A DNA stretch of 24,118 nt. Source: a virus. How positions within the stretch are numbered: position 1 is the first letter of the stretch; each line of letters opens with the position of its first letter. The stretch covers positions 1 to 24,118 of the IMG/VR virus record IMGVR_UViG_3300027881_000075. One strand, written 5' to 3'. The position numbers and the translations under genes were made by a program. Below, piece after piece: positions 1 to 19,946 of the stretch. The notes below the pieces were generated by a model, which did not search any database, was not told where the DNA came from, and was given only the letters and a program-made list of their open reading frames with translations.

Positions 1-1679
1 AAAACGATGATGGCACTTATAGTTGGATTGAAGGGGGCGACATACCAGAAACACCCGAGTGGGTTAGTGATATTATGGGTGTGCCATGGGCTGCTAAACC
101 CGGGCGAGGCAATGAGGAAGTAGGGGAAGATTACATAGAGGAAAGATATGAGCTTAGCCAAATCGCCGCTATGTTGGACCACATTAATACCGATGCTATA
201 TCGTACGAAGAGTGGCTATTTATTGGACAAGCGATTAACTCCCAATACCCCGATAAAGATGGCCTCAGTTTGTGGGACGGTTGGAGCGCAACCGGGGAAC
301 GATACATCCAAGGTGAGTGCGAGAAACGATGGCCTGGATTTAATCCCGCTGGAACCATACGAGTCGGTAGTCTTATCTATTTCGCTAAAGAAGGCGGCTA
401 TGATCCGTCAAGTGACCCAGCAAGGGCCGGAGATTTTAGCGAGTTGGTACAGGCTATGAACACGGATAATGCCATACTTCTAACCGGGGGCAAGATACGA
501 ATCGTGCACCGGGATAAAGTGGGCGGAATCCACATAATGGGCACCCAAGATTTTAATACCCTGATGTATAACCGTAAGGTAACAATTCCCGGTAAACGAG
601 GGAAGCAACCGACTGAAGCTGATGTTTGGATGGCTCACTCTGATCGGCGGGAGTGTATTAGAGGTATGGGCTTCTTTCCGGATGAAGATTTATGGTGTAA
701 TGGTTATGTTAATCTATGGCAAGGATGGGGGGTTAAACCGGAGGAAGGGGATTGGTCCTTATTTGATAGCCACATCAAGGAAATCTTATGTGGGGGCGAT
801 GAGGAATTACATGATTATATCCTTGATTGGATAGCCGACATAATTCAGGACCCGATGGTGCCAAAAGGTACTGCAATCGTAATGCACGGGGAGGAAGGTG
901 TCGGAAAGGGAACTTTCTGTGAAATGGTGGGTGGAATAGTAGGACGGACCCACTATAAGCATGTAACTAACCCACGGCATCTTGTTGGTAACTTTAACTA
1001 TCATCTTATGGACGGATTGTTCGTGTTCGCAGACGAGGTAATTTACGGTGGAGATAGACAAACGGCAGGTGTCCTCAAATCGATGGTCACTGAAAAGCAA
1101 CTGGTGTGTGAACGTAAGGGTATTGACTCTTTTATGTACGATAACCGAATCCGACTCGCTGTGGCCTCCAATGCGGATTGGTTTATACCTGCAGGGCCGG
1201 AATCAAGAAGATGGCTCGTACTGGAAGTCAGCAACAAGTACGCAAATAACCGCCGTTACTTCGATGCTCTATTCGACCAGATGTTAGATGATGGGGGTTT
1301 AGCTGCGATGATGTTCGACCTCCAGAGTAGGAAGATTGAGAGCAATTTGGCCAAGGCTATTGTAACTGAGGGATTAAAGACCCAACGGGCAATATATAAG
1401 GCTACGGGTGATTCAGTCGATGTTTGGATGGACGAGTGTATTGGCAGACACGACTTAGGAGTTGTTACTGCTGATGAATCTTGGCCAGACGACGTAGATA
1501 GAATGGGGCTATTCGAAGCTTTCTCTGATTGGGCTAAGAATAGGAAAATAAGAACCAAGGGTGTAGTTCATTTTTATAAGAAGGTAGAAGCATATGGGTT
1601 CGTCAAGCACAGACCAAGAACAGAAGGAATACGACGATGGAAATACAAGGTCCCCCCGCATGACAAGTTTACAACCTAA
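1..1679 (+). CDS. PrimPol / PriCT-2 / DUF5906 primase-helicase (5' end cut off)
   Basis: This is a replicative primase-helicase, open in frame from base 3 with no stop, so the N-terminus lies outside the window. The ATG at base 75 is internal. The first codons (YSWIEGG...PETPEWV, bases 18-65) resemble the end of a bifunctional primase-polymerase (AEP/PrimPol) domain. Next comes a PriCT-2-like region (about bases 165-410: YEEWLFIGQAIN, LWDGWSA, IRVGSLIYFAKEGG). A DUF5906/D5-like helicase core follows, with Walker A GEEGVGKGT (888-914), Walker B GLFVFADEV (about 1014-1040), a sensor-like LAVASNAD and an arginine-finger-like ESRRW. The last 60 residues look like a winged helix. It should prime and unwind phage DNA. 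It overlaps purZ by 20 nt, which links replication to Z-nucleotide synthesis, as with the PrimPol of Z-phage S-2L. The helicase call is firm. The PrimPol call rests on about 25 residues. Confidence 0.88.
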   Translation, partial: NDDGTYSWIEGGDIPETPEWVSDIMGVPWAAKPGRGNEEVGEDYIEERYELSQIAAMLDHINTDAISYEEWLFIGQAINSQYPDKDGLSLWDGWSATGERYIQGECEKRWPGFNPAGTIRVGSLIYFAKEGGYDPSSDPARAGDFSELVQAMNTDNAILLTGGKIRIVHRDKVGGIHIMGTQDFNTLMYNRKVTIPGKRGKQPTEADVWMAHSDRRECIRGMGFFPDEDLWCNGYVNLWQGWGVKPEEGDWSLFDSHIKEILCGGDEELHDYILDWIADIIQDPMVPKGTAIVMHGEEGVGKGTFCEMVGGIVGRTHYKHVTNPRHLVGNFNYHLMDGLFVFADEVIYGGDRQTAGVLKSMVTEKQLVCERKGIDSFMYDNRIRLAVASNADWFIPAGPESRRWLVLEVSNKYANNRRYFDALFDQMLDDGGLAAMMFDLQSRKIESNLAKAIVTEGLKTQRAIYKATGDSVDVWMDECIGRHDLGVVTADESWPDDVDRMGLFEAFSDWAKNRKIRTKGVVHFYKKVEAYGFVKHRPRTEGIRRWKYKVPPHDKFTT

Positions 1680-2643
1680 GGTTGATCTGGTTGTAGATCT
1701 TCAATACGGGAGTACAGGTAAGGGACTAATTTGTGGATATTTGGGGGAGACAGGTGATTATGATACCTGTATTACCGCCAATATGCCCAATGCAGGTCAT
1801 ACTTACATATCAAAGAATGGGGTACGGTACATGTTTAAGGTACTGCCCAGTTCAGCCATAGGTAAGAATATAACGCAAGTTTTAATTGGCCCCGGGGCTG
1901 TATTTAGTCTCGATAGGCTAAAGGAGGAAATGGTACATTTACGTACGAACCAAACTCTACGTATCCATCCATGCGCAATGGTGCTAGCTCCAGAGCATGT
2001 CAAGAAAGAAGCGGCGATGGTAGATCGAATAGGCAGTACGGCACAAGGTAGCGCTGCTGCGGTGTGTGAAAAGATGATGAGATATAAGGCATCAATCACT
2101 AAAGATGCGCTAAGGAACACGGAATTTAGCCAGTATGTTGCTAGCCATTCTGAATGGCAAATCCGGCTAGAATCTTCAGCCGGTATACTTGCAGAGGGGT
2201 CGCAGGGCTTCAGTCTTGGGATTAACACCCAGTTCTATCCCTATACCACCAGTCGGGATTGTAGTCCTGCGGCTTTTCTCTCCAATATGGGTATCCCAAT
2301 CCCTATGCTTAACATAGTAATCGGGACCTGCAGAACTCTGCCCATTAGAGTTGGTGGGAACAGTGGCGACTGTTACGCGGATCAGGAGGAACTGTCGTGG
2401 GAGGAACTCCAGCTCCCCCCAGAACACACAACAGTGACCAACCGGGTACGGCGAGTTTTCACATACTCTAAGATGCAGATAGAGGAGGCTTGTTGGCATT
2501 GCGCTCCTGATCTAGTCTTCTTGAACTTCGCCAACTACGTAGAGAAACACTACGTGGAAAATATAGTAGCCCACATTGACGAAATGAGTACGGTCAGGTG
2601 GGTTGGGTTTGGACCAACATACCAAGATGTGGGGTTAATATGA
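1660..2643 (+). CDS. purZ: PurZ, 2-aminoadenylosuccinate synthetase
   Basis: A 327-aa member of the adenylosuccinate synthetase superfamily. PurZ ligates L-aspartate to dGMP using ATP or dATP, giving a precursor that host PurB converts to dZMP (2-amino-dAMP). Seen here: P-loop YGSTGKG (residues 16-22), where PurA enzymes have WGDEGKG, so the catalytic Asp13 of E. coli PurA is Ser18. The NAGHT histidine is kept (His47). EGSQGFSLG with YPYTTSRD, RVGG, TTVTNRVRRVF (257-267, the aspartate-loop position) and GFGPTY near the C-terminus are all PurA-fold landmarks. The PurA guanine-binding TKLD motif is replaced by NFAN (289-292), which fits ATP rather than GTP use. I chose ATG 1660, not the ORF-longest ATG at 1594, because the fold begins at VDLVVDLQ and 1660 gives only a 20-nt overlap with the helicase gene. 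An ordinary PurA is unlikely given Ser18. Confidence 0.95.
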   Translation: MTSLQPKVDLVVDLQYGSTGKGLICGYLGETGDYDTCITANMPNAGHTYISKNGVRYMFKVLPSSAIGKNITQVLIGPGAVFSLDRLKEEMVHLRTNQTLRIHPCAMVLAPEHVKKEAAMVDRIGSTAQGSAAAVCEKMMRYKASITKDALRNTEFSQYVASHSEWQIRLESSAGILAEGSQGFSLGINTQFYPYTTSRDCSPAAFLSNMGIPIPMLNIVIGTCRTLPIRVGGNSGDCYADQEELSWEELQLPPEHTTVTNRVRRVFTYSKMQIEEACWHCAPDLVFLNFANYVEKHYVENIVAHIDEMSTVRWVGFGPTYQDVGLI

Positions 2644-2963
2644 AAAAATACATAAGCGTACATGAGGCGGATTTAACTGTGATTTCCCGGGCCATTAAGC
2701 ACTGGGCCGATGAAATTATGCCGGATAGAACTCCGGCTGACGCCATCAAGAAACTTTCAATGGAGGAAGTGCCAGAACTCTGGCGAGCGTTGAAAGAGAA
2801 TGGTGAAGTGGATGCGGGTGAAATAGCCGATGTTCTTATCCTTGCTTTAGACATTTGTGAGCTAGAGAACATTAATCCACTAATAGCGATCCACGCAAAG
2901 ATGATGGAAAATTGCGCCAGAAAGTGGAAAATTGAATATGGGGTTATGCAACATGAAGATTAA
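2640..2963 (+). CDS. mazZ: MazZ, MazG-like dGTP pyrophosphohydrolase
   Basis: A 107-aa all-alpha NTP pyrophosphohydrolase of the MazG/DUF550 type. The Mg-binding signature is visible as EVPE (residues 43-46) followed by EIAD (61-64), within KLSMEEVPEL and GEIADVLILALDI. The C-terminus (KMMENCARKW...GVMQH) follows the usual end of DUF550 proteins. In Z-phages this enzyme cleaves dGTP to dGMP and PPi, supplying the PurZ substrate. The ATG at 2640 overlaps the purZ stop as ATGA, so translation is coupled. A longer reading from 2598 lies inside purZ and adds residues outside the fold, so I rejected it. The family is clear from sequence. The dGTP specificity is inferred from its place between purZ and datZ. 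Confidence 0.92.
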   Translation: MKKYISVHEADLTVISRAIKHWADEIMPDRTPADAIKKLSMEEVPELWRALKENGEVDAGEIADVLILALDICELENINPLIAIHAKMMENCARKWKIEYGVMQHED

Positions 2964-3453
2964 TGATATTCTACGGGCATCGGGGGTCACACGCTGGCAT
3001 ATCGTCCGGACCGTACGCCCCCAGAGCCTAGCGGAGCATACGTTCGATGTGACCATGATTGCCAGAGCTATTGCCAAAATTGCGGGGTACGATGATTATG
3101 AAATCACAAAAGCAGCGCTTTTACACGACCTCGATGAAATTGTCACCGGGGACATACCAACGCCTACTAAGGAAAAAGCTAGGGATAACGGATGGGAACT
3201 CAATGACCTCTACAAGCAAGTCACGGGGCGGGTGCTTGAGCCAGACGAGGCCCTTATTATACAGTTGGCGGACAAAATGGCCGACCTCTATTGGCTGTGG
3301 CTGCACGCATTGGGACCCCATGCGAATCGCGTTTATGAGTCTATGGCCGAATACTACAATGAACTCGTGCGGTCCGAATCGATACCGGATAACATCAGGG
3401 AAGCTGCCCTCGAAGTTCAGATGCAGATGTTATCTGAGGAGTTTACAACGTGA
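2953..3453 (+). CDS. datZ: DatZ, HD-domain dATP triphosphohydrolase
   Basis: A 166-aa HD-domain phosphohydrolase of the YfbR/DatZ type. Metal ligands are visible as His29 (SLAEHTF), His58-Asp59 (LLHDLDE) and Asp107 (LADKMADL). The Arg14-Trp15 pair (TRWHIVRT) matches the RW motif before the first His in YfbR-like enzymes. DatZ removes the triphosphate from dATP, emptying the pool so that dZTP is incorporated opposite T. ATG 2953 is chosen over TTG 2932 and ATG 2938 because it places RW about 14 residues in and reduces the overlap with mazZ to 11 nt. A GGGG at 2940-2943 could act as ribosome binding site. By sequence alone it could be a general 5'-deoxynucleotidase. The gene order makes DatZ the much better call. 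Confidence 0.92.
   Translation: MKINDILRASGVTRWHIVRTVRPQSLAEHTFDVTMIARAIAKIAGYDDYEITKAALLHDLDEIVTGDIPTPTKEKARDNGWELNDLYKQVTGRVLEPDEALIIQLADKMADLYWLWLHALGPHANRVYESMAEYYNELVRSESIPDNIREAALEVQMQMLSEEFTT
3436..3441 (+). promoter_or_regulatory. Ribosome binding site for the nuclease gene
   Basis: GAGGAG lies 8 nt before the GTG at 3450, inside the end of datZ. It favours GTG 3450 (overlapping the datZ stop as GTGA) over the ATG at 3471. Confidence 0.6.
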
Positions 3454-3947
3454 GTAGGGGTGAAACAAAGATGTGGAAATACCTAGGGCCAAAACTTAAG
3501 CCCTATGGTCACTTTGAGAGGATTGAAAGTCATGAAACAGCAATTGGAACTCCCGATGTTAACTATTGCATCGAAGGGTACTGCAATAGTCTCGAACTTA
3601 AATACACCGAGAATGAAAAGAAGTGTATCTTACGACCCAGCCAGTCGGGGTGGTTCCGTAAGCGTTGCAGAGCTAAGGGGCAACCGTGGCTCCTCCTTTG
3701 TGCGAATATACGACAAACGAGGGGGTGGTGCCTCATTCCCGGTACAAATGTGCCTGGACTTGTTCACACTAAAGACGTAAAACACTGGTTACGCGTAGGA
3801 ATAATGGTATGGGAAGAAAAGATAATAATAGAGCAACTCGTGACATTCTTAGGTACTTACCTAGTGGCGTCACAAGAAGGGTCAGATGGGAACAACACAG
3901 AGGAATCCTCTGGGTTGATATTGCCCTCACATCTAAAGAAGAACTAG
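3450..3947 (+). CDS. VRR-NUC-like PD-(D/E)XK nuclease
   Basis: A 165-aa protein whose first 125 residues look like a small PD-(D/E)XK nuclease of the VRR-NUC / Holliday-junction-resolvase kind. Seen: GTPDVN with Asp36, then LELK with Glu49 and Lys51, then RPSQSGW with Gln65 and an aromatic, all in family order, followed by hydrophobic strands (PWLLL). It could resolve branched replication or packaging intermediates, or cut host DNA. The sequence does not say which. It starts at GTG 3450 in a 4-nt overlap with datZ, so it belongs to the same operon as the Z genes. The last 45 or so residues (after VKHWL) look unlike the family, and 139 nt of the gene overlap the next reading frame, so the C-terminus may be wrong or non-essential. 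Family call moderate to good; role unknown. Confidence 0.72.
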   Translation: MSRGETKMWKYLGPKLKPYGHFERIESHETAIGTPDVNYCIEGYCNSLELKYTENEKKCILRPSQSGWFRKRCRAKGQPWLLLCANIRQTRGWCLIPGTNVPGLVHTKDVKHWLRVGIMVWEEKIIIEQLVTFLGTYLVASQEGSDGNNTEESSGLILPSHLKKN

Positions 3948-4120
3948 AATGGGTCCATAAGCAGATGTTTAAGCGTGCCCCGTGCTTTGCTATGGTTCGG
4001 ATTCATCAGCTTATTTGGACATATTATACAGGGGCAGCCGTAGGTGAAGATTATCACCTAACCACGATTGGGCAGACCTGTTACGATCTCATGCGCGATG
4101 CTTTAGAGCTTCGACGATAG
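3809..4120 (+). CDS. Unknown 103-aa protein, last gene of the + operon
   Basis: I do not recognise this protein. It is 103 aa, mixed charged and aromatic (W, Y, H rich), with no signal peptide or membrane segment. TAGGA at 3796-3800 sits 8 nt before the ATG and is a plausible ribosome binding site. It overlaps the nuclease gene by 139 nt in another frame, far more than any other overlap in the window, and its last 40 nt overlap the convergent gene on the - strand. Its composition looks more protein-like than the nuclease tail in the shared stretch. This supports it as the real gene there, but both frames may be used. Confidence 0.55.
   Translation: MGRKDNNRATRDILRYLPSGVTRRVRWEQHRGILWVDIALTSKEELEWVHKQMFKRAPCFAMVRIHQLIWTYYTGAAVGEDYHLTTIGQTCYDLMRDALELRR
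4041..4060. repeat. Inverted repeat near the convergent operon ends
   Basis: TAGGTGA (4041-4047) and TCACCTA (4054-4060) form a perfect 7-bp stem with a 6-nt loop. It lies inside the end of the 103-aa + gene and about 20 nt beyond the stop of the last - strand gene. There is no U-rich tract on either side, so a standard intrinsic terminator is not supported. It could be chance. Confidence 0.3.
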
Positions 4121-4296: not shown

Positions 4297-4454
4297 TATC
4301 GCTTCCGCTTTCCCTTTCTCTTTTTGCGTTTAGCTGTTTTTCCCTTAGAGTGAGCAATGAATTTCTTTGCCCCAGCCTTAGATATCCCGATTTTCGACCT
4401 ACCAGATGCCGCTGCATACATTGCCCTCTTTTGCTTTGCTGATTTAAATGGCAT
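4296..4454 (-). CDS. Small basic phage protein of the MPFKS-type family, 52 aa
   Basis: A 52-aa protein beginning MPFKSAKQKRAMYAAASG and ending in a run of Lys/Arg (TAKRKKRKGKRKR). Short proteins with this opening are common in tailed phages and some prophages, but I know of no established function. The gene is flanked by two TAATG junctions (with the 3TM holin gene before it and the 71-aa basic gene after it), which supports it as real despite its size. Strong positive charge suggests nucleic-acid contact; this is inference only. Confidence 0.7.
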   Translation of the reverse strand: MPFKSAKQKRAMYAAASGRSKIGISKAGAKKFIAHSKGKTAKRKKRKGKRKR

Positions 4455-4858
4455 TACTTTGTCTTCCCTTTAATCTTCTCCATGGTTCGAAGTGTACCAA
4501 GGCCCAAGAGCGCGAACACTAACTCCATAATCACGCCTTCGGGTAAGTTTGGTCCATTTTGACCTGTGATCCACTGAATCCACGGATTGATCAAAAACAT
4601 ATTAGCTAAGCCAACGCCCCCAACCCAACCCATAAACGGTCGCCAGCCTGCAACAAATCGTGATCGGTGACTGGCTTCGATCTTGTTAAGCTCAATCTGG
4701 GCCATATCGGGCGCTTGAGCGAGCCGAATCCGTACCTCTTCGTGGGTTAATTTCTCATCTTTCGATGTGAAGAGATTGTCGACAATGGAGCCAACCGCAG
4801 TTATACCGGCTACCGCTTGGTCACCGCCGAAGATTTTACTTAGAAGACCCAAGGACAT
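4454..4858 (-). CDS. Holin, 3TM family
   Basis: A 134-aa protein resembling the 3TM holin family first described from gene transfer agents. It has an N-terminal amphipathic part, a central IELNKIEASHRSRF stretch, the hallmark WRPFMGWVGG (about residues 72-81), and hydrophobic segments at about 77-98 and 108-124, ending in basic residues. It would form the inner-membrane lesion that starts lysis. The start is uncertain: AAGGAG (4860-4865) is only 1 nt from ATG 4858 but 7 nt from an in-frame TTG at 4850-4852, so the real start may be TTG or both may be used. It overlaps the upstream small membrane gene by 23 nt and ends in a TAATG junction. Confidence 0.82.
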   Translation of the reverse strand: MSLGLLSKIFGGDQAVAGITAVGSIVDNLFTSKDEKLTHEEVRIRLAQAPDMAQIELNKIEASHRSRFVAGWRPFMGWVGGVGLANMFLINPWIQWITGQNGPNLPEGVIMELVFALLGLGTLRTMEKIKGKTK

Positions 4859-5073: not shown

Positions 5074-5424
5074 TTACGGTAGGACGACAGAGAAGCCTGA
5101 TGGTGCCTCCGGTTTGGATGGCGCGACAGTAAAATTTACGACGTTACTTGCGTCCGATTCCTCCCCATTGGTTGCCACCGTTGTAGCATGACAAGTATAA
5201 TTACCCTGAGGTAATGTGGGAGATACCCAAGTATCTGTCCCACCGGTATTCGGTGCGTTGCCCAGTAACACCGAATTACAGTAAATGTTATATGAAGCAA
5301 TCTCTGCATCCGGTAAAGTGGACCCATCAGTGTTTTGCGTTGGCGGTGTCCACGTGAACGTCTTAGATTCAATTGCAAACACCAATGGTGCACACAATAA
5401 TAGGCAGTATAGTAATTTTTTCAT
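5074..5424 (-). CDS. Secreted fibronectin type III-like protein
   Basis: A 116-aa protein with a signal peptide (MKKLLYCLLLCAPLVFA, likely cleaved after VFA, no lipobox) and one immunoglobulin-like FN3 domain. FN3 features seen: TFTWTPPTQNTDGSTL, IASYNIYC, LPQGNYTCHATTV, GEESDASNVVNFTV. Two Cys in the domain (about residues 49 and 78) could pair in the periplasm. It lies between endolysin and holin genes, and similar short secreted FN3 proteins occur in phage lysis regions, but a role in lysis is inferred. The ATG overlaps the endolysin stop as ATGA and has a strong GGGAGGT site. After the stop, the -1 frame continues for about 14 codons as a proline-rich stretch (PPRPQPKPPG), which may be chance or a lost C-terminus. 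Confidence 0.72.
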   Translation of the reverse strand: MKKLLYCLLLCAPLVFAIESKTFTWTPPTQNTDGSTLPDAEIASYNIYCNSVLLGNAPNTGGTDTWVSPTLPQGNYTCHATTVATNGEESDASNVVNFTVAPSKPEAPSGFSVVLP

Positions 5425-5885
5425 GCTTTTACCTCCCTTAACCCGTGTATATATTTAGTTCGCCCCGCCTCTTTGAAGGCTGTTAATTCTTCCAGGCGAA
5501 CATCCTCTTCTTCTGCTGATATCCCTACATGTACCCAACGTCCAAATTCTTGGATTACTTGATCATAGGGAAGCTCCATATCCCTTATCGTTTCAGCGAG
5601 TCTAAGTGGTGTAATAGGACGGTGAGGAATCACATCTGCCGCCATGCCATAAGGATGCGCAGAAGTGGTGGACCCACCTATGAGAGTATTAAGCTCCAAC
5701 GGACGATACCCGGAACTTATCGAAAAAGGCACACCGAGTATATCTCTTACAGGTTGAAGAATATCAACACAGAGACGCCGTAAGTTATCAATAACCTCGA
5801 TAGGTGGGTCCATGTTAATGCCGTGGCGGATCGCAGTTTGCGACACCAAGAACTCCTCAAGAGAGAAATTTTCCGTTAACTTCAT
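5421..5885 (-). CDS. Endolysin, M15-family peptidase
   Basis: A 154-aa zinc peptidase of the M15 (D-Ala-D-Ala carboxypeptidase-like) type. It would cut peptide crosslinks in peptidoglycan at lysis. Seen: SSGYRPLELN (57-66), then the zinc motif SAHPYGMAADV with His77 and Asp84, and WVHVGIS with His119 as third ligand. Glu113 in EFGRWVHV is the likely catalytic acid. There is no signal peptide, so it depends on the holin to reach the wall. Its start overlaps the spanin-candidate stop as ATGA, and its stop overlaps the FN3 start the same way. Confidence 0.9.
   Translation of the reverse strand: MKLTENFSLEEFLVSQTAIRHGINMDPPIEVIDNLRRLCVDILQPVRDILGVPFSISSGYRPLELNTLIGGSTTSAHPYGMAADVIPHRPITPLRLAETIRDMELPYDQVIQEFGRWVHVGISAEEEDVRLEELTAFKEAGRTKYIHGLREVKA
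5431..5437 (-). promoter_or_regulatory. Strong ribosome binding site for the FN3 gene
   Basis: On the - strand this reads GGGAGGT, 6 nt before the ATG at 5424. It is one of the best Shine-Dalgarno matches in the window and suggests high independent translation of the FN3 protein despite its overlap with the endolysin gene. Confidence 0.6.
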
Positions 5886-7604: not shown

Positions 7605-8755
7605 TATGAATAATCTTGTAAGAAACTTCCGAACCAAGTGGTGCCTCCATCCCTTGTCCAAAGATGTACGGTATCCCTTGCGTTATTAGTAACCGAGATT
7701 ACTGGCGGTGTGCCCCCGGGCCATAAGACCGATCCCGGCCAGATCGCATTGAAAGCGGGTGTACCTTGTACGAAATCAATTATAATCTCACCGTAACGGC
7801 CAATAGCTGGTGGATTTGATAATACAACCGTGAAATCGGCAGTTGCACCAACATCGTCAATATCGATAACACAGGCATTGGCCGATTCTAGATCAACAGT
7901 TACCGAATTCGCGATAATTGAGAATTGCACTACCGCTATAGAGTAATCAAGGATGTGTGGTCGTACAATAGTAATATCATTCCAATTCCAAACTGGGCCT
8001 AGGTATTCAACCCCAGTCATTCCACCAGTACCTACAAATGTAGTAACACCAGCAAAAGTAGAGAATGAGAAGGCATCAATACCATCACTTGAGAGAATTC
8101 CAGAGTCTGTAACTATTGTACCTGCAGCGCTGATTTTTGCTATAGACTGTTCAACCCAACCACCGGCACCATCACCACGCAATGTAGAATTTAATACTGA
8201 ACTCGCAGGTAAAAGACCCCCAGAACCAAATGATAAAGTACCTGCCCCATCGGTAACAATAGCATCGCCCGGGGTACCATCCGCTAAGGGTAAGATATAG
8301 TTAATAAACTCGTCCCAATCAAGACCAACATTATCCCAACGTAGGATACTTCCTTCTATTGTACCAACCGGTAGAGTAGTGGGACTTATGGCATTGATCT
8401 GATCTTGCAAATCAGCGGCTACCTGCAGAAGGTCCTGGACCTCCATTGTTAGCTTATCTAACGCATCCTCATGTGACTCAGAGTCGAAAGGATCATACCT
8501 TGTATAGTCCAGATTCTGAACCTGTGGGGTATCCCGTTGAATCCTGATATCCTGTAAATCCGGTGGAGCAACACTATAATCCACTGTGCCGCCCGGAGTT
8601 GTATCTTGATCCGCGTTAAGGGTTACCCCGATTATGTCAGTTGTGAATGAGACATTAACCCAAGAAACATCATCCGCTCTGAATACAAAGGCAAAGGACG
8701 TTTGAGCGCCGTTACCAATATAGTCAACAAAATTTGGTACATTTTGAACTGTCAT
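7604..8755 (-). CDS. Tail fibre protein with T7-type N-terminus
   Basis: A 383-aa fibre. Residues 1-120 follow the pattern of the T7 gp17-like N-terminal attachment domain (VPNFVDYIGNGAQTSFAF, then IRIQRDTP, then YDPFDSESHEDALDKLTMEVQDL leading into a coiled coil). The middle is repetitive, beta-rich stalk. The C-terminal 80 residues (FVQGTPAFNAIWPGSVLWPG, VHLWTRDGGTTWFGS) match a tip region seen in many phage fibres. It would bind the host surface, attached to the short tail. The ATG overlaps the giant gene's stop as ATGA, with GAGG about 7 nt upstream. Confidence 0.85.
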   Translation of the reverse strand: MTVQNVPNFVDYIGNGAQTSFAFVFRADDVSWVNVSFTTDIIGVTLNADQDTTPGGTVDYSVAPPDLQDIRIQRDTPQVQNLDYTRYDPFDSESHEDALDKLTMEVQDLLQVAADLQDQINAISPTTLPVGTIEGSILRWDNVGLDWDEFINYILPLADGTPGDAIVTDGAGTLSFGSGGLLPASSVLNSTLRGDGAGGWVEQSIAKISAAGTIVTDSGILSSDGIDAFSFSTFAGVTTFVGTGGMTGVEYLGPVWNWNDITIVRPHILDYSIAVVQFSIIANSVTVDLESANACVIDIDDVGATADFTVVLSNPPAIGRYGEIIIDFVQGTPAFNAIWPGSVLWPGGTPPVISVTNNARDTVHLWTRDGGTTWFGSFLQDYS

Positions 8756-11700
8756 TCTTCCGTCCTCGGTTTAAAGAACTCCGGCCCTTCTTTACGGTGT
8801 TCTATTTCATACTGTGGAAATTCCTCTATATCCAGCGGAACATCCGTTCCCCGTACTGCTCTGCGAAGCCTTATGTATTCCCGTACACTAACCGGATGAT
8901 CGATAAGAATTAAATCACCATTACCTCTACGAAATTGTGCTTTATCCCCACTATGTCTAATCAACCAAGCAAGCATCTGGTCCCGGCCATTGGCGCTGCC
9001 TATCCCTAAAACTCTGCGTAATGCATCTTCCCCATCTGAACCGGGACCTATATTCCCTTTCTCTACCAAACGTTTCCAGGCTTGGGTCTTCATCAGAGTG
9101 TTTACCGCTCTGTATCTGGCTTTACCCACTATCTCCAAATACTTATCGTATACAAACCCAGCACCACCATCCATGGCAAATAAGTTAATAGCATTACCCC
9201 GTCCTTTAGGCCATTCTATGGTTTTATTGGGTATATTCGGTGGGATACGCGCATAGGCAATTGCCATACTCGCTGGGTCAGAATCTTCTGGATCACGAAT
9301 CTTAAACGGGACCAACCCACGCACGTAAGCATTACCGTATCTATCAATTGTGTCCCCTTTCCAATCTCTGGCAGAAGGTAATTCATCAGAATGCCAGGGT
9401 GAAGCATTCTTCATTTGCTTAACCACCTGATCTATCAAATTCGTACTAGCAGCGGTCCTTACCTCTGGGTCTGTTACTGCTCTAATATCGCGCGCTAAAT
9501 TAGGCACCACGATCGAGTTAATAAGACTAGCGGTAACTGATCTTGCCCGAGCTTCTTCTTTAGACTGAATGGCTGTAATAACGTCGGATGCAGTAGATAA
9601 ATAAGATTCATCTACAATCATATCTGCTGTGTACAGCAATCCAGCGGTGAGCCACTCCATTGCGGGTTTATTCTGTTGCTGAGTCATGGCATAGTAATCA
9701 AAAACTGAAGCTATAGATACTAGAGATTGACCCCCTGGATCGGCCCGAGAAATATCATAATATTTGCCATGTATCCTGATTGAATTTGCTTGCCATCCAC
9801 CAGCTTCCCATGCCTTCCGTTCTTCCCAATTACTCGGACCAGTACCAGTAATATCGCCATTTTGATACATTTCATAGACTGTCAACCATAACCCAGCGGC
9901 TACAGTCAATCTTGCTATAGCTTCTTGGCTCTCTTGTGCTGAGCCTTTCATAATTTGTCTGTAAGTGGTGGGTAATGAGACGAATTGATTAACGCCTATC
10001 ATTTCCATCGAATAACTTAAAAGGTTAGCTGGGGTACGGACAAATGGCACTATCATATTAACTATGATACTTCTATTTTGTGCCGCAGCAGCGCCCCGGG
10101 CTAAAGCTGCAAATACCCCACCATATACACTTGGATCATTAGTATAGGTTTGTTTAGCGGCGTATTCTTTTGCTTCCCGCATCATCGGAGCTTCTGGATC
10201 ATCAACATATTTACGATACCGTGTCTGAAAGTCCATCCCATGATGTACTTCATCTACCCGTGCTTTCATGCTTGATAATTCATGAATCTTGGACATATAA
10301 TACTGATTCTTGAAGAAAGCATCACCAGCCTCAAGTAACCGAACCGGAGTAGTACCTATTTTAGCAAATGCGCCATCTGGTACATCAATAACGTTATACC
10401 GTAAACCTAGCTCGTTCCAAACTTTACCTTCACCGATATCTCGGCCTAGGGCAATCTCCTTAGCTAAAGCAAGACTATCCCGGGCTGAAGCATAATGACT
10501 TCTTAATCCAGCCCACTGTTGATGAAAGGTTATTCTATCTGCTGGATCGGGTATAAATCTAGGATCAATTACCCCCATTGCTATTTGCGAGGCATGCATT
10601 GAATTATTAATTATCATCTTGACAGGGTTTACTAAAAGATGTTGATATGACCCTGAAGCAGAGTTACCCAAGAAATTAAAGAAGTGAGTCCGCCAGCTAG
10701 ATAACATCATATTATATCTAACAATCAGGAAAGCCGATGCGACTTGATTGCCCCATATATTATCAGATATCTTTGTGGCTTCTCCTATCTTAGTTCGTCC
10801 AGGCTTTATGATATCCTTATCTGCAAGATCAGCGAACATGGTAATAGCTCTTTCCGTGTTGGTTCTACCACCACTAATGCTAATCGCATCCATTAATCCT
10901 TGAGAAAACTCATAAACCTCATTAGTCGGTCGAGTCTTAAGAATTTGAAGTTGCCTACCGGCGTTACCAACTGTAGCAAAGAATAAATCTCTGGTAGCTA
11001 CGAATGTAGTGTGGGCTTCATTAAACATGGCCATTTGTTCATCCGTTAACCTACCATTATTTTTCAAATCTCTCCTCAATACACGGCCAAGTTCCAACAT
11101 ACCATGGGCCATGGAATTATACGTATCCCGTAAATATAGAAGTTCAGCTGGGGTCCAGTACGTGGCAAGTTTCTTCTGTTCAATTTTAATCCCCATTTCA
11201 CGTAGTTCTTTTACAATTGTTAGTTGCTCTTCGGTAGTTATTTTAACTCCCTGTAACTTACCAGATACCACGTCTTCATTCATAGCTATGATTTTAGCCG
11301 CATTCGTGGAAAATGGCGCTAATTCCATTGGACCAGCCATTTCAGGCTTAGGACGAGATTCTAGAACTTCAAACTGGTTACGACGTCGATTGACCTCCTC
11401 ACCGGTTAATTTATTTCTTAAGTGGTACCAACCATTCTTGGTTCGACCCACCACTTCAAATTCGGCACCGGTTGCATCACGAACAAAACTACCGGGTAGT
11501 GAAGCGGACTTTCCGACCACTTCCTCTTTTACTGTTGCCTCTATCTCTGCAATACGCCTAGCTAACTCCTTTGATTCGGCCATAGGTAATCTAGCTGGCT
11601 GAACCTCGTCAGCCATCATTGCACCGAATCTGCCTATATCTACAGGATCACCGCTAATGACAATAACACCTGTGGCACTGGGAGTATCTACTCCCGATGG

Positions 11701-14688
11701 GTTAAAGGTCCCTCGATGTTCAGTATGGCTGGTTGATGGAAATTCACCACGTCTGCTAGCTTCTCGCCATGCCTTATCCGCTGCTTGTAGGTCTTTACCC
11801 CGATATACTTCGCCAGCTTCACCTTTAACAACAAGCTCGCCTGGATATTTAGCTACCCATGACCGTAAAGCCCTAGTCATATCGGGTTCGTCCATGTCCC
11901 AAATTCTACCTAATTCCTTCTGCGCTGGGGTTAATGACGGATCATCCAGATAGGTAATACCAAGATTTTCTCCCCCATCTTCCCTAGATGGAACTTCATC
12001 AGGTAGAGCGGTTGGTTCCGCTTTTACACCGGTTTCTTTAGCAACTCTTTCAATTCTTTCAGCGGTTGCAGGGGACATATCTGTAGCATCAAATAATATG
12101 TCACCTTCCTCACCCATCGCAACCTTGAATCCGGCACGTTCAAGCTTGTCCACCACGTTTATTGGGTCGATTTCCAGTTTAGCTATATCTTCGTCTGACA
12201 ACCCACGGGCTAACCCTTCTTCGACCGTAAATGGCTTTCCACCCCTACGACCTGGAAGTATTGTTTCACCCTCAGCAGGGACCAGACGTTCCGGATGATC
12301 CGTTGCTACATCCTTAATTATCTGTTCAAAGGGCTTTTCAGCCCCTATTTCCGTTTCATAGATTTTATTGAACCTAACTCGATCCACTTCGTTGCTGAAT
12401 TGTAATGTTAATGTTTCAGCCGGTATTGGGAAATCTCGTTCCTTGGTCCCCCGAACTACCTCTACGTTAATATTGTTCTCTGCCGCAAGCTCTTTAATTT
12501 GTCTTTCGGCAGCGAAACTGTCCTCAATTGCCGCTCCAACTTTCCCGGCACTGAAAGTCCATGTGGATGAATTACCTTCATGTGTAATTTCTGCCCCGCC
12601 GATCAACTGCTCTGGTAGAGCATCTTCAATTTCTAGGAATCGTCGTATTTGTTCTGCCGTACCCCGTACTTTAATAGGCCCTGGGGCATTAACATCGAAT
12701 TTAACAGTTGCGCCCGTTTCAGCCCCAATACGCTTGAAAACTTCAACAGCCGCTGGCCCTGTATCAAAGCCATACTGCCATGTGTTAATATCCACACCGC
12801 CCTCGACCACCTGGATTTCCTTATCGGAGAAAGGTGCATTTGGCTCAGTACCGGCTCTTTCACGATTCCATTTATCAACGAAATCTAAAATTTCCGTCTC
12901 TGCGCTTCCAGCTTTTCTAGTAGGAAGTATACTGGGTGGTGCATCAGCGGCAGGTATACTTGGATATTCTCTAAGTTCCCATTCCTCGTGGATCATTTCA
13001 GCGATTGTTGCATCCGTGCCATATTCATCTTTAAAGCCTTTCTTGGGCCTCATTTTTATTACAGCTTTATCTTGCTCAAATGTTACGAATAGATCAACAT
13101 CCTTCTTAAATAAGTCCACCATTTCATCGAAAAATTTGTATATGCTATCTGTTACATCGTCATTAGCTAATACATCATATTCAATATCAACTTGGCCTGC
13201 TTCCGGGGCATTGTCTATAATTTTAGCTTGCGGTGTAGCTCCAATTCCTTTGTCATGGAAAATTCTAATCCTATCAGCTAAAATATCCTGGTCAATAGAA
13301 CCATCCACTTTACGAGGTATCTCATGACCTTCGTTTATGAACTCAAGAATCATTTCCGCGTCGGTGGCTCGTCGACCTTGTGCGGCTTCTTTTGCAATTT
13401 GATCTTCAAGAGCTATCGCTATTTGATCCGCAGCCCGACCTTCTGCGGCTCGCTCTTCTGAGACTAACCTGCCCCCGAGCGCGTCAGCTAACATCTTTTC
13501 AGCTTCTTTCGCAACTTTGTCCATGCGACGACCAACTAAATGACCAGCCCCACCACCTATAGCGATTCCTAATAATCCCCCTGCACCAGTAGCTAAACCA
13601 GCTTCGCCCCAATCTATACCTTCTCGGGCACCAGCTTGTTTCTCAATAGCTTGAACAGTTAAATTAAACCCACCAGCGAGTGATGCACCTTCCACCATAC
13701 CGGCTGTTCCGCCTATGATCGCTAGTTGAGTAGACTTTTTAAGTTGAGCTTTAGCTAATTGTTTAGCTGCTCCCCGGGCCGCAAGAGTACCAACACCAAG
13801 CCCACTATAAGTAGTTGGATCAGAAGCAAGATTAAGTACCGCCATACCGAATTCTGCGGCTCCGCCATCTGAATGATCATACATATTAAGAAGATTCAGA
13901 AAATTTAGTGCAAACTCTGGATCCCCAGAAGTCATAACCTTATGACCGAGACTCAACATCGCCGCTAAATTCCAATTAAATGAGCCAAATTGACGTCTTG
14001 CCCATTGACCAATTTCATTATCACGGCTCTGTCGCCCTGTGGGTGCAAACCAACCCGGCTCGTATTCACCCCGTTGTTCTCGGTATCTACGTACGTATTC
14101 TGCTCGATCCTCAACTAGCGCAGGCGAAGGACCTCCAGGAATAAGGTCTGGAGACCCCATATACTTATGAAATTTCTTAGCCTCTTCAATCCACTCTTTC
14201 GAGTAGGTCATTGTATCCGTTGATGGTGGCTCGTAATTCAGTGCCTCAGCTTCTGGCGGTGGCTCCCATAAACCCTCTGGTTTAGTGGGTACACCTTCCC
14301 CTTTGAGAATCAAATCAGATAGGGTTACTTCCCCAGTCTCAGGGTCTACGTCTGTCTCCCGTACCGGGGTACCGCCGACTGGCAGTTCCGAGGTATCCCC
14401 GGGCGCATCGGTACCGGGTCCCTCGGCATCGGTACCCGGTATCGGTGTGGGGGTGGCGGGTCCGTCGTCCGTCCCGCCCGTGGACACGGAGACACGCCCA
14501 TCAAGAGCGGCATTCTCAACATTTTGAGCTTCCAGGAATAGGTTAAAAGCCTCTGCGCTAGTTATACTTCGTGCATTGGGTAAGGATTCACGCCACAAAT
14601 CATATTGGTCCGCAAGACCCAACCCCTCGAGCCTTTTACGCCGAATCGCTTCAGCTTCTTGTGCTACATCATATTCTGTGGCGCTCAT
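8752..14688 (-). CDS. Giant internal virion (ejection) protein, 1978 aa
   Basis: It holds the T7 gp16 position: after gp14- and gp15-like genes and before the fibre. Parts seen: an N-terminal region with a Pro/Gly/Asp/Thr linker (about residues 65-115); a Gly/Ala-rich hydrophobic region able to enter membranes (about 275-395, including IIGGTAGMVEGASLAGG and AGGLLGIAIGGGAGHLVG); a long middle of alpha/beta modules (about 480-950); an SH3-like patch (about 1058-1113, SFVRDATGAEFEVVG); and an 840-residue helical C-terminal part (WRTHFFNFLGNSAS, FVRTPANLLSYSMEM) like the ends of large podoviral internal proteins. No lytic transglycosylase motif is visible, unlike T7 gp16. It probably helps form the DNA-ejection conduit. 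ATGA overlaps occur at both ends. Confidence 0.75.
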   Translation of the reverse strand: MSATEYDVAQEAEAIRRKRLEGLGLADQYDLWRESLPNARSITSAEAFNLFLEAQNVENAALDGRVSVSTGGTDDGPATPTPIPGTDAEGPGTDAPGDTSELPVGGTPVRETDVDPETGEVTLSDLILKGEGVPTKPEGLWEPPPEAEALNYEPPSTDTMTYSKEWIEEAKKFHKYMGSPDLIPGGPSPALVEDRAEYVRRYREQRGEYEPGWFAPTGRQSRDNEIGQWARRQFGSFNWNLAAMLSLGHKVMTSGDPEFALNFLNLLNMYDHSDGGAAEFGMAVLNLASDPTTYSGLGVGTLAARGAAKQLAKAQLKKSTQLAIIGGTAGMVEGASLAGGFNLTVQAIEKQAGAREGIDWGEAGLATGAGGLLGIAIGGGAGHLVGRRMDKVAKEAEKMLADALGGRLVSEERAAEGRAADQIAIALEDQIAKEAAQGRRATDAEMILEFINEGHEIPRKVDGSIDQDILADRIRIFHDKGIGATPQAKIIDNAPEAGQVDIEYDVLANDDVTDSIYKFFDEMVDLFKKDVDLFVTFEQDKAVIKMRPKKGFKDEYGTDATIAEMIHEEWELREYPSIPAADAPPSILPTRKAGSAETEILDFVDKWNRERAGTEPNAPFSDKEIQVVEGGVDINTWQYGFDTGPAAVEVFKRIGAETGATVKFDVNAPGPIKVRGTAEQIRRFLEIEDALPEQLIGGAEITHEGNSSTWTFSAGKVGAAIEDSFAAERQIKELAAENNINVEVVRGTKERDFPIPAETLTLQFSNEVDRVRFNKIYETEIGAEKPFEQIIKDVATDHPERLVPAEGETILPGRRGGKPFTVEEGLARGLSDEDIAKLEIDPINVVDKLERAGFKVAMGEEGDILFDATDMSPATAERIERVAKETGVKAEPTALPDEVPSREDGGENLGITYLDDPSLTPAQKELGRIWDMDEPDMTRALRSWVAKYPGELVVKGEAGEVYRGKDLQAADKAWREASRRGEFPSTSHTEHRGTFNPSGVDTPSATGVIVISGDPVDIGRFGAMMADEVQPARLPMAESKELARRIAEIEATVKEEVVGKSASLPGSFVRDATGAEFEVVGRTKNGWYHLRNKLTGEEVNRRRNQFEVLESRPKPEMAGPMELAPFSTNAAKIIAMNEDVVSGKLQGVKITTEEQLTIVKELREMGIKIEQKKLATYWTPAELLYLRDTYNSMAHGMLELGRVLRRDLKNNGRLTDEQMAMFNEAHTTFVATRDLFFATVGNAGRQLQILKTRPTNEVYEFSQGLMDAISISGGRTNTERAITMFADLADKDIIKPGRTKIGEATKISDNIWGNQVASAFLIVRYNMMLSSWRTHFFNFLGNSASGSYQHLLVNPVKMIINNSMHASQIAMGVIDPRFIPDPADRITFHQQWAGLRSHYASARDSLALAKEIALGRDIGEGKVWNELGLRYNVIDVPDGAFAKIGTTPVRLLEAGDAFFKNQYYMSKIHELSSMKARVDEVHHGMDFQTRYRKYVDDPEAPMMREAKEYAAKQTYTNDPSVYGGVFAALARGAAAAQNRSIIVNMIVPFVRTPANLLSYSMEMIGVNQFVSLPTTYRQIMKGSAQESQEAIARLTVAAGLWLTVYEMYQNGDITGTGPSNWEERKAWEAGGWQANSIRIHGKYYDISRADPGGQSLVSIASVFDYYAMTQQQNKPAMEWLTAGLLYTADMIVDESYLSTASDVITAIQSKEEARARSVTASLINSIVVPNLARDIRAVTDPEVRTAASTNLIDQVVKQMKNASPWHSDELPSARDWKGDTIDRYGNAYVRGLVPFKIRDPEDSDPASMAIAYARIPPNIPNKTIEWPKGRGNAINLFAMDGGAGFVYDKYLEIVGKARYRAVNTLMKTQAWKRLVEKGNIGPGSDGEDALRRVLGIGSANGRDQMLAWLIRHSGDKAQFRRGNGDLILIDHPVSVREYIRLRRAVRGTDVPLDIEEFPQYEIEHRKEGPEFFKPRTEE

Positions 14689-16438: not shown

Positions 16439-16834
16439 TTACGTCGGATAAAGTGATATACCAGTTTGAATACCGCCAGTGACGGACTTATATGTACTAG
16501 TTTGTGCTTGAACATCAGCAACTTTTATGCCAATTCTACGAGCTTCCTTAGCGAACTTCTCCATCCAATCAAGTTCCTTCTTAAATTCCCGAGCCATCGT
16601 GTCCAGAACCCCTTGTGCAGTAGACCCACCAGCATGCAGAACACCTGCAGTTTCACTAAGTGCCTTAGCAGCGCCCTTAGTTTGTTCTTGCTCGAATTCA
16701 CGTCGACGAATCTTCTCAAGATTGTCCAAATATGCAAGTTCAGCTGATTGTTTATCGGCCTTCTTTTGCTTCCCAGCGCCCCATATTCCACCAATGGCTT
16801 GAGCAAGTCCGAGTGCAATAGCTACAAATTCCAT
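16439..16834 (-). CDS. Internal virion protein, gp14-like
   Basis: A 131-aa protein with an Ala/Gly-rich hydrophobic N-terminus (FVAIALGLAQAIGGIWGAG, residues 3-21) followed by a charged helical body (about 22-110). This layout is shared by T7 gp14-type ejection proteins that enter the outer membrane on infection. Start ATG 16834 shares a base with the stop of the tail tubular A gene (TAATG). The call rests on layout and gene order. Confidence 0.7.
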   Translation of the reverse strand: MEFVAIALGLAQAIGGIWGAGKQKKADKQSAELAYLDNLEKIRRREFEQEQTKGAAKALSETAGVLHAGGSTAQGVLDTMAREFKKELDWMEKFAKEARRIGIKVADVQAQTSTYKSVTGGIQTGISLYPT

Positions 16835-17445
16835 TACCGCGTCCTCGTACCTGTGAGTAGGTTGCTCTGAATCCTCTCCGTTCTTCCTTGTCTGCCCTCA
16901 GAGAATTGTGCCTCAGCAAGTTTAGCGATATACATTAACTCCATTTCTTCTTTCAATTTTCTATTTTCAGTGAAAGTTAACGCTGTATCAGCTGCAAGTC
17001 TAGCAGCTAACGCATGCACGAACGAAGCCGAAAATAAATCAGTATTCGCTATTTGGATAATGAATATACAATGTATCACATCCTCTCTTGCAAGGATATG
17101 ATTACCCTCCCGTATCCAGTCAGCATTTACACCGACCCGGGACCTAACTTGACTAAATAAGGTAGCGCCAGTGCTTTGTGGCCTTAATACCCTGTGTACA
17201 AATAATACGTCACTTGGGATTAAAAACTGATTAGCAAATCCAAATGGAGGCGGTGTAGCTACAGGAGACAATATTTGCCGCCTAGTCGCGAAATTCCAGG
17301 CACTGTCATTCAATACCTTATCACGGGATAGGGCATAATTGGCATTCATGACAATCGCTTCATTCTGATTGTCACCTAAAGCATTAATCAAATTCTGACC
17401 CAGCCAAGATAGGGCAAGATTCACTATTTGTACTTCGTTAGCCAT
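16834..17445 (-). CDS. Tail tubular protein A-like adaptor (gp11-like)
   Basis: A 203-aa protein with the typical opening of T7 gp11-type adaptor proteins: EVQIVNLALSWLGQNLI, followed by NANYALSRDKVLNDSAWNFATRR, LIPSDVLFVHRVLR and a C-terminal LAARLAADTALTFTENRKL helix. It would form the ring between portal and tail nozzle. It comes after the nozzle gene in transcription order, reversed with respect to T7 gp11-gp12. TAATG junctions on both sides. Confidence 0.85.
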   Translation of the reverse strand: MANEVQIVNLALSWLGQNLINALGDNQNEAIVMNANYALSRDKVLNDSAWNFATRRQILSPVATPPPFGFANQFLIPSDVLFVHRVLRPQSTGATLFSQVRSRVGVNADWIREGNHILAREDVIHCIFIIQIANTDLFSASFVHALAARLAADTALTFTENRKLKEEMELMYIAKLAEAQFSEGRQGRTERIQSNLLTGTRTR

Positions 17446-19946
17446 TATACTTCCTCAGAGACAACCTTACCAAATATACCGGTTATTTCCGTAATTATTG
17501 GTTTATCCTGCGTTATTTCCAAATCTCCCTCACCGGAACCTAGATCTACAATTTCTGTATCACCGGTAATCAGTGGCTCGCCTACTCCCATTGGCGCAGC
17601 TGGAGTACGATCCTTAGCTGCTATGCCCTCAATTATAGGTACTGGAGAATCATTAAGTCTCGCAAAGACCTTATTCCAACGACGCTTGGACGACTGAGAC
17701 GTACCTCTCTGACTAACCCCTTCAAGTGATAGCAACTGGCAATCATTATTGTAAAATAATCCTAAGTAAGCTGTGTGTCCTGCCGCCCATGATTCAAGTG
17801 GACTTGAAACTCCCGCGATTACCGTAACATTTGGGTGTACAGTATAGGAAAATTCTAAGGTTGTGAGGTCTAGACGTTCAACCACGACATTTACACTTTG
17901 ATCTGTTAATTCATCAATATCTGAACATGTAAGAGTAATAGGATCAATTGAGCGAATCGCGTATGAATCCAATGACGGTTTTAATCCGGATTCGAAACCT
18001 AATACCTCATGCCCGGGTTTTTGTGTACCTGGAAATCCAACCCGATTAACGATCATCCAAAGTTTTGCGCCTGTTGATGTGTTAATTTTAGTTATATCCA
18101 TGATCTGGTTTACAGTCTGGATATTGTTATCACTTTGATTTCCTAATCCGGGCTTAGATTCATCGCCCGACAGCCTATTTCCATTAAATGAGGTTGTATA
18201 ACGCCACCACCCTATAACATCTTCTGGATAAAAGAAGGTAGCCATACCCATTGAGCCATCAGCTAGCAGAAAACATGCCTGATACCCCGGTTCATCAAGA
18301 TAAACCATCCGACGAACAGGAGAACCAAAAATGTCTTGTGCTAACAGACTTAGTTCCTTACCGTCCCAACCAAAATTAGTGCCGCCTTCATCCGCAAACG
18401 TTCTTACCCTCTTTCGACTATTCGATGTGTAAACCATATCGCGGCCAACGGCTATAGGCTGCACACAATTTGATCCCCAATCTGTCTGCTTTGGAAATGA
18501 GAAATCGTCAAAGGCAATGACACCTTGTTGTGATGTTCCAATAACCTCGGATATATCAGTAAGTATTACTAGTTCCTTTCTACTAGTTAAAGTTTCAATA
18601 TTTCCAGACGACGATAACGGGAATAAAAGTGGATCATCTTTAGATGATGGGGCTACATTATTAAAATCTCGATAATTCCCAGACCTTGATGCCCATAAAG
18701 TAGCCGGATTATTGGGAGAACCGCCCAACCAAAGCCTTCCCTCATGGAAAGCACATGATACAGGGAAATTACCAGCAGCCCAAGTATTCGGTGTTGGAGC
18801 TACAAATACAGTTGGTAATGTAATAGTGGATAATGCCTCAAATGTCCACTCACCAACATCAAGTCTTAGCCTATGAGTCTCGACCTCTGGATGCGTAAAA
18901 TACGCTACCTTCTCGCCTGGGTCCATACAAAATTGTAAACACTCTAATTGCGCTGCTGTATAGGGCGATGCAAATTCAACTGTTGACCCTGACCCACCCG
19001 CTAACGGTGCGGTCCATTGTAATACACCTATATCCATCGTTAACTTCGCACTAAACGCTGGTGGAGTTCGTAAATCAGGCACAGGATCAGTAGTACCGGT
19101 CCAAAATAATCCAATTGATATATATAAGGAATTATTACCAGCGCCCGGGACAAAATTAAAAGTAGTGTCTACATATACTAAATCAGCACCAATAATAATA
19201 TCACTTGTAAAAACATCGGATAAACCCTTAGCCGTACCAATCTGTACTCTTATAACAGGATCAGGGAGTGGTAAACCCCCTAGAATCCCTATCCTAGTGC
19301 CTAAAAAATCAGTCTCAAATAAAGTTTTCCACCTAATAATCAATTCATTAAGCAAAAGTTCAGAACCAGCTGGGATAGTGATTGGAGCTATGACCCCATT
19401 TTCAAGCGCAATGCCATGAAACCCATCAGGTGAATCATCTGTATTACATTGTAATTTAATAAATGCTTGTGGGAGACCTTGCCAATAGGGGCCATTATGA
19501 TCAGAAACGGCTCGACCCGGATCAGTATGAAAGACAGATTTATCCCGATCTGGGTCCCAAGTTGTGCTTGGAAATCCAAGATTCCACATGGGATCAGGGA
19601 TTAAGTTACCTGTAACACCACCAACAATCGGTGCACCACTGATAGAATTACGGAGAATTATGGTATCTTCACCGACCTCGACAATAATATCTTCATCCAG
19701 GCCGCGCTGAAATGTGAATACACGTAAACCTTCAGCACCGGGTGTTCCCGATATCCAATTATCAGGGTCTACCGCCTCAACAAATCGGGAACCTTCACGC
19801 ATACGAATTGGCCCCTGGACTAACGGATACCAATTTCTTGCCCGTTTTAAGCCAGCTTTATAGGCATCCGCCGATACACGGCTACGTATCCGTGCATCAA
19901 TTTCCCCGGCAGCGAAGGATTCTTGTATGGGTGATACACGGGCCAT
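17445..19946 (-). CDS. Tail tubular protein B-like nozzle (gp12-like)
   Basis: An 833-aa protein with the classic opening of podoviral nozzle or stabilisation proteins (MARVSPIQESFAAGEIDARI, then RNWYPLVQGPIRMREGSRFVE). The body is beta-rich with LamG-like and propeller-like parts; FHEGRLWLGGSPNNPATLWA and SRSGNYRDFN are typical of the family, as is the region with QTDWGSNCVQPIAVGRDMVY. It forms the distal tail tube. TAATG overlaps at both ends couple it to its neighbours. Confidence 0.88.
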   Translation of the reverse strand: MARVSPIQESFAAGEIDARIRSRVSADAYKAGLKRARNWYPLVQGPIRMREGSRFVEAVDPDNWISGTPGAEGLRVFTFQRGLDEDIIVEVGEDTIILRNSISGAPIVGGVTGNLIPDPMWNLGFPSTTWDPDRDKSVFHTDPGRAVSDHNGPYWQGLPQAFIKLQCNTDDSPDGFHGIALENGVIAPITIPAGSELLLNELIIRWKTLFETDFLGTRIGILGGLPLPDPVIRVQIGTAKGLSDVFTSDIIIGADLVYVDTTFNFVPGAGNNSLYISIGLFWTGTTDPVPDLRTPPAFSAKLTMDIGVLQWTAPLAGGSGSTVEFASPYTAAQLECLQFCMDPGEKVAYFTHPEVETHRLRLDVGEWTFEALSTITLPTVFVAPTPNTWAAGNFPVSCAFHEGRLWLGGSPNNPATLWASRSGNYRDFNNVAPSSKDDPLLFPLSSSGNIETLTSRKELVILTDISEVIGTSQQGVIAFDDFSFPKQTDWGSNCVQPIAVGRDMVYTSNSRKRVRTFADEGGTNFGWDGKELSLLAQDIFGSPVRRMVYLDEPGYQACFLLADGSMGMATFFYPEDVIGWWRYTTSFNGNRLSGDESKPGLGNQSDNNIQTVNQIMDITKINTSTGAKLWMIVNRVGFPGTQKPGHEVLGFESGLKPSLDSYAIRSIDPITLTCSDIDELTDQSVNVVVERLDLTTLEFSYTVHPNVTVIAGVSSPLESWAAGHTAYLGLFYNNDCQLLSLEGVSQRGTSQSSKRRWNKVFARLNDSPVPIIEGIAAKDRTPAAPMGVGEPLITGDTEIVDLGSGEGDLEITQDKPIITEITGIFGKVVSEEV

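Follow-up and report, generated by a model that had tools for sequence, protein, structure and literature searches.

A predicted 2-aminoadenine gene cluster in an uncultured podovirus and the apparent exchange of datZ among its relatives

Identification of the Z-cluster

A stretch of viral DNA of 24,118 bases (IMG/VR record IMGVR_UViG_3300027881_000075; the whole stretch is called the window) possesses the three genes purZ, mazZ and datZ, which point to a genome containing 2-aminoadenine (Z) in place of adenine. Z-phages belong to the few natural cases in which another base takes the place of one of the four DNA letters. With a probability of roughly 0.88, the window represents the middle of an uncultured podovirus genome which makes Z-DNA by the known MazZ, PurZ, DatZ and DpoZ route. 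An initial annotation had placed the triad at 1660-3453, and this was found to be exact: PurZ, MazZ and DatZ are encoded in overlapping frames with strong family, fold and residue matches, and the matches are far beyond chance. The complete Z-cluster is borne out by gene content, gene order and residues, and a Z genome is predicted from it. The three genes are as follows.

1660..2643, + strand: purZ, 2-amino-adenylosuccinate synthetase, 327 amino acids, above the NF038379 cut-off and 52% identical to phiVC8 PurZ
2640..2963, + strand: mazZ, dGTP pyrophosphohydrolase of the MazZ-1 (S-2L-like) type, 107 amino acids, with sequence and fold match to 7ODY and ligands kept
2953..3453, + strand: datZ, HD-domain dATP triphosphohydrolase, 166 amino acids, phrog_7076 E 4e-32

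The genes are adjacent, with mazZ between purZ and datZ. The start of mazZ and the stop of purZ share ATGA, and datZ overlaps mazZ by 11 nt. The purZ start at ATG 1660 was picked by homology; another in-frame ATG is situated at 1594.

Conserved residues of the three enzymes

PurZ scored 308.6 bits (E 4e-92) against the NCBI PurZ model NF038379, for which the cut-off is 300, and matched phrog_1211 with E 1e-84. It belongs to the PurA superfamily PF00709, and all the PurA equivalogs failed on it, giving 39-134 bits against cut-offs of 368-700. The phylogeny of PurZ had been set beforehand as a refutation test. In a quick maximum likelihood tree of 97 rows the protein branched with phage PurZ, apart from PurA, and was of the PurZ and not the PurZ0 type. 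Residues were checked by alignment in S-2L numbering, guided by published structures. The catalytic Asp13 of PurA is replaced by serine, as WGDEGKG of the E. coli protein aligns to YGSTGKG, and this Tyr-Gly-Ser loop carries Ser23 in place of the PurA aspartate. The residues of the dGMP/ATP pocket are kept; the conserved positions are N49, A50, H52, T132, R146, Q190, R240, V241, T273-T276, R280, N305, F306 and P336. Position 308 holds Asn, which phiVC8 shares, and in the whole clade of the window described below C204 is replaced by Thr.

MazZ fell below the Pfam MazG cut-off, so a motif reading alone would be weak. As a mazZ probe PF03819 is uninformative, since it also misses MazZ of phiVC8 and of the window's clade. 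The identity was settled by comparison with a PDB sequence, by fold and by residue checks. MazZ of the window matched S-2L MazZ (7ODY) with E 3e-10, and its AlphaFold model, with a mean predicted local distance difference test score (pLDDT) of 91.6, also showed 7ODY as the best fold. The metal ligands E35, E38, E50 and D53 and the guanine-contact residues I56 and D60 are kept, together with E34, K76, N80, R83 and W85.

DatZ matched S-2L DatZ (6ZPA) with E 6e-13, and phrog_7076 is named 'dATP triphosphohydrolase'. It keeps 14 of the 15 residues named for S-2L DatZ, the exception being K116, which is replaced by Q. The kept residues comprise the HD metal ligands H34, H66, D67 and D119, E70 and D75, W20 and I22 at the base and sugar, and R19, Q29, A32, G74, P79 and K81. 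As predicted from their families, PurZ, MazZ and DatZ look active with the expected specificity.

Predicted route to Z-DNA

MazZ would hydrolyse dGTP to dGMP, and PurZ would join dGMP and aspartate, with ATP, to form the succino-precursor of dZMP; host enzymes would finish dZTP. DatZ would remove dATP, leaving little A usable. A Z-preferring family-A polymerase (DpoZ-2), found just upstream in all relatives readable there, would put Z opposite T, and the resulting genome would be resistant to many adenine-reading nucleases. The enzyme steps are established in phiVC8, S-2L and SH-Ab 15497, and from them we infer the action of the window's proteins, the presence of the clade polymerase in this phage and Z in its virion DNA. 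The assignment draws on the family scores, the position of Z-phage isolates as closest matches, the gene order of phiVC8 and ZP6, the kept residues, the PurZ tree, the DpoZ marks of the clade with their match to 7PBK, and the published mechanism.

Relatives of the window in metagenomes

A profile scan of IMG/VR revealed 374 stretches encoding a PurZ relative, showing that purZ is widespread there, and 80 of them were taken into the comparison. Relatives are labelled L### for loci from IMG/VR and other records. The window and 12 of the 80 stretches formed one clade with 63-81% identity (SH-aLRT 99). Wherever the contig reaches, the members have the primase, purZ and mazZ genes in common, as well as the small nuclease gene and, upstream, a family-A polymerase. 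No match to phage records was obtained by megablast with the complete window, indicating no near relative among isolates.

A few further loci are also recorded. L047, on a 120-kb contig, has a purZ of 51% identity whose flanks, over 6 kb in each direction, are free of mazZ, datZ, DpoZ and primase genes. L103, from a bacterial genome bin, shares its PurZ with viral contig L049 and is a phage contig binned with a Gammaproteobacterium. L102, from a Verrucomicrobia bin, shows a PurZ locus with mazZ, datZ and DpoZ, and L104, from a Gottesmanbacteria bin, has a PurZ of 36% on a very long branch. L119 (CAKLQH020000034.1) is listed as an Acinetobacter phage; with hisZ next to a bacterial purA it looks like bacterial DNA.

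Replacement of datZ by a DUF7220 gene

datZ is missing in 3 of the 13 clade members, L006, L026 and L031, which possess purZ, mazZ and the nuclease gene. Searches of their whole contigs (29.4, 40.8 and 32.7 kb, respectively) with phrog_7076 and PF12917 gave no datZ, and the same phrog_7076 search was positive in 11 of 11 other contigs. The DatZ of the window used as query also gave no match in L006; datZ-bearing relatives were searched as well. These whole-contig searches rejected the idea that datZ had moved elsewhere in the contig. A 141-base repeat is present at the ends of the 40.8-kb contig, which runs from terminase through early genes and looks complete.

Exactly in the datZ slot, the three datZ-less relatives carry a gene for a protein of 73-89 residues with the DUF7220 domain (PF23858, phrog_4276, unknown function), which was found in no other compared locus. 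Its positions are as follows.

L006:11313-11579: DUF7220 gene in the datZ slot
L105:17176-17394 (= L026:7316-7534): DUF7220 gene in the datZ slot
L114:6410-6640: DUF7220 gene in the datZ slot

L026 and L009 are collinear, with 84% identity to the end of mazZ and 82% again from the nuclease gene; between them about 500 bases with datZ in L009 correspond to about 240 bases with a 73-residue DUF7220 protein in L026. The explanation that the datZ-less contigs are fragments or assembly errors was rejected as far as possible: two metagenomes supplied the three contigs, which all show this replacement gene at one and the same place, the sequence flanking it is collinear between L026 and L009, and the 40.8-kb contig bears the end repeat.

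The concatenated tree joins the window and L006 as sisters (100/100) and places L026 together with the datZ-bearing L009 and L027, with L031 apart; the presence of datZ needs 3 changes on it. Grouping of the datZ-less contigs as one clade was rejected by the approximately unbiased test, the group having been named after the first tree was seen. DUF7220 of L026 and L031 is 89% identical and their PurZ and MazZ 65-70%, which suggests that the cassette moved sideways. Judged from these gene contents, datZ is swappable in the clade of the window. No substitute dATP-degrading enzyme was recognised among the ten early genes scanned in a datZ-less genome.

DNA polymerase of the clade

The polymerase could be read in nine clade members (L006:5995-7821 and the DpoZ of L007, L009, L010, L026, L029, L030, L031 and L032). 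All nine keep the DpoZ-2 marks (insertions 1-3, L455, F459 and G548) and the exonuclease residues D26, E28 and D85. All nine are also devoid of about 17 residues of the exonuclease segment, a part with a presumed role in proofreading; in phiVC8 these residues make up helix E1 and the first part of helix E2. This deletion was found in none of 63 other DpoZ-2 sequences, several of which are identical. In eight of the nine, the TGR motif has Trp in place of T356. The best PDB match of the L006 polymerase is phiVC8 DpoZ (7PBK, E 2e-174). Its model (mean pLDDT 91.6) has the same protein as nearest solved structure, with a template modelling score of about 0.9, and shows one short helix at the E1/E2 site.

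In phiVC8 DpoZ the R161A/M165A mutant, altered in E2, is reported to lose most exonuclease activity and to need 342 uM dATP vs 1.9 uM dZTP, against 449 uM dATP vs 15.6 uM dZTP for the wild type, and exonuclease mutants of this enzyme kept or raised the Z preference. By analogy, the clade DpoZ may be a natural version of this mutant, and the window phage would be expected to have the same polymerase without E1/E2. We offer tentatively, as a possibility which is more probably wrong than right, that in the clade adenine came to be excluded by the polymerase instead of at the nucleotide pool: DpoZ would have lost E1/E2, as a natural counterpart of R161A/M165A, making datZ dispensable and open to replacement by the DUF7220 gene.

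Alternative explanations

Several observations weigh against a Z genome in the window phage. Sequencing reads Z as A. The phage's own polymerase gene lies outside the window, the contig starting within the primase. datZ is absent from three relatives including the sister L006. Position 116 of DatZ (window 3239-3265) is Gln, where close DatZ homologues are described as strictly keeping a lysine that binds the triphosphate; among the relatives of the window it is Gln, His or Lys, and K81 is kept. The loss of datZ in the three contigs and the K116Q change, along with the published finding that S-2L genes in E. coli converted only part of the DNA, would also fit a partial replacement, in which the swappable datZ and the altered exonuclease lead to virion DNA with a mixture of A and Z. 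We consider this unlikely, as the datZ of the window is apparently intact, the clade retains the signature residues of DpoZ, and the loss of exonuclease activity in phiVC8 DpoZ left the Z preference unchanged or raised it.

That the triad is a relict decaying in the clade, with datZ already lost several times, finds its argument in the replacement of datZ in 3 of 13 members through at least 3 changes on the tree. It is very improbable in view of purZ and mazZ, which are open with residues kept in every member, the datZ-less ones included, and of the replacement itself, a clean swap for another gene rather than decay. Least credible of all is a PurZ acting as a PurA-like auxiliary enzyme for ordinary purine synthesis beside MazG and HD proteins that work as general nucleotide recyclers. 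Membership in PF00709 and the common occurrence of HD and MazG proteins in phages and cells would allow it, but the PurZ equivalog passes its cut-off with all PurA equivalogs far short, serine stands in place of Asp13, the protein is on the PurZ and not the PurA branch, and the overlapping triad forms a single unit, like that of proven Z-phages. Z-DNA made by the known route is the best prediction for the window phage.

Both pool control by DatZ and polymerase choice by DpoZ help to keep adenine out of Z-DNA. With the window, one more uncultured Z-phage lineage is added. Its clade offers natural comparisons which no laboratory has made: sister phages that have or lack datZ, and polymerases that have or lack the exonuclease helices, with purZ and mazZ kept in every case. 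The enzymes are known ones, but these natural variants can be used to ask what excludes adenine, and this is testable with a few synthetic genes.

MazZ types and gene order in Z-clusters

The mazZ slot showed three states, MazZ-1, MazZ-2 or no mazZ, which need at least 7 changes on the PurZ tree, a quick tree with several weak branches; by these changes mazZ is exchanged among Z-phages. MazZ of the window matched 18 phage records at E 0.01, all with the PurZ/MazZ-1 set, comprising Acinetobacter, Salmonella, Klebsiella, Providencia and Pseudomonas phages, BUCT555, Bm1 and S-2L. None of the Vibrio and Alteromonas podoviruses closest in PurZ was among these 18. phiVC8 and ZP6 carry MazZ-2 (phrog_9860), and blastp of the window MazZ against theirs gave no match at E 0.01. 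The idea that MazZ-1 is new in a podovirus was rejected, as BUCT555 has it.

Surveys of 2021 and 2026 described ten genomes in which mazZ always separates purZ from datZ, and reported datZ in most purZ phages. The rule on the position of mazZ does not hold in metagenomes. Ten podovirus-type Z loci (L037, L046, L051, L052, L053, L055, L059, L060, L062 and L067) have datZ directly after purZ, without an intervening mazZ. phrog_9860 revealed no MazZ-2 elsewhere on eight whole contigs of these ten loci, and MazZ-1 was sought only in the compared stretches. In Vibrio phage K300 an unannotated mazZ-2 (L016:6013-6264) was observed between purZ and datZ, and the annotated datZ start extends into it.

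Other genes of the window

Genes lie on the + strand from the left end to 3947, and the larger genes are reversed from about 4080 on. The assigned features other than the triad are the following.

3..1679, + strand: primase-helicase, C-terminal 558 residues (PriCT_2 and DUF5906 helicase), truncated by the contig start; PF08707 E 4e-15, PF19263 E 4e-21
3471..3947, + strand: small nuclease-like protein, phrog_2165 E 4e-19, 38% identical to the phiVC8 gene at the same position, without Pfam match
4454..4858, - strand: holin-like lysis gene, phrog_3427 E 1e-25, the first gene of the reversed late arm with a clear assignment
5421..5885, - strand: endolysin, phrog_894 E 1e-39
8752..14688, - strand: internal virion protein, 1978 amino acids, phrog_6651 E 6e-19
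16834..17445, - strand: tail tubular protein A-like, phrog_394 E 1e-39, phrog_9239 'tail tubular protein' E 3e-13
17445..19946, - strand: tail protein (tail tubular protein B-like), phrog_376 E 9e-69
23178..24062, - strand: major head protein, phrog_3437 E 8e-71

The primase shares 42-43% identity with its counterparts in phiVC8 and ZP6, which are encoded immediately ahead of purZ. The product of 3471..3947 contains a G-x-PD...ELK motif and is of the PD-(D/E)XK/VRR-NUC type by motif only. A 103-residue reading frame at 3809-4120 on the + strand overlaps this gene and has no Pfam or PHROG family match; at the matching position phiVC8 and ZP6 likewise carry a short gene without known function. 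Rfam and tRNA scans of the window found nothing. The T7-like short tail proposed in the initial annotation agrees with the tail tubular-type and internal virion proteins, which support a podovirus, known here from its genes.

Comparison with known Z-phages

The Z-cluster has been described in podoviruses and siphoviruses alike. Among isolates, the best PurZ matches were phiVC8-type Vibrio podoviruses (52%) and the Alteromonas podovirus ZP6 (46%). S-2L, against which the cluster had initially been judged, is among the more distant relatives (38%).

phiVC8 (Vibrio, Enhodamvirus), the podovirus whose PurZ and DpoZ are the type structures, shares with the window the order primase, purZ, mazZ, datZ and small nuclease followed by reversed virion genes, and the short tail. 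It differs in having MazZ-2 instead of MazZ-1, a DatZ of 41% identity, and a DpoZ with helix E1 and the start of E2, which the DpoZ of the window's relatives are without. The phiVC8-like VP2 and VP5 carry the same genes. ZP6 (Mareflavirus), a podovirus by microscopy, has the same gene order as the window with a primase of 43% identity, but its MazZ is of the MazZ-2 type and its DpoZ keeps E1/E2, unlike that of the window's clade. In both phages the DNA polymerase is directly upstream of the primase in the same block.

Cyanophage S-2L, a siphovirus, resembles the window in the order and overlap style of purZ, mazZ and datZ and in the type of MazZ (41% over 88 residues), and differs in its PurZ, its long tail and a PrimPol instead of DpoZ. 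Stenotrophomonas phage BUCT555, a podovirus, shares PurZ (46%), MazZ-1 and DatZ with the window and also has a family-A polymerase, with E1/E2 kept, and a primase of 30% identity.

The initial annotation had taken the short tail as a sign of a less-described lineage of Z-phages. This was rejected: phiVC8, ZP6 and BUCT555 are already known podoviral Z-phages, so a short tail does not set the window phage apart. It is a new member of the known podoviral Z-phages, in an uncultured sister lineage, and the novelty is in the surrounding clade and not in the triad.

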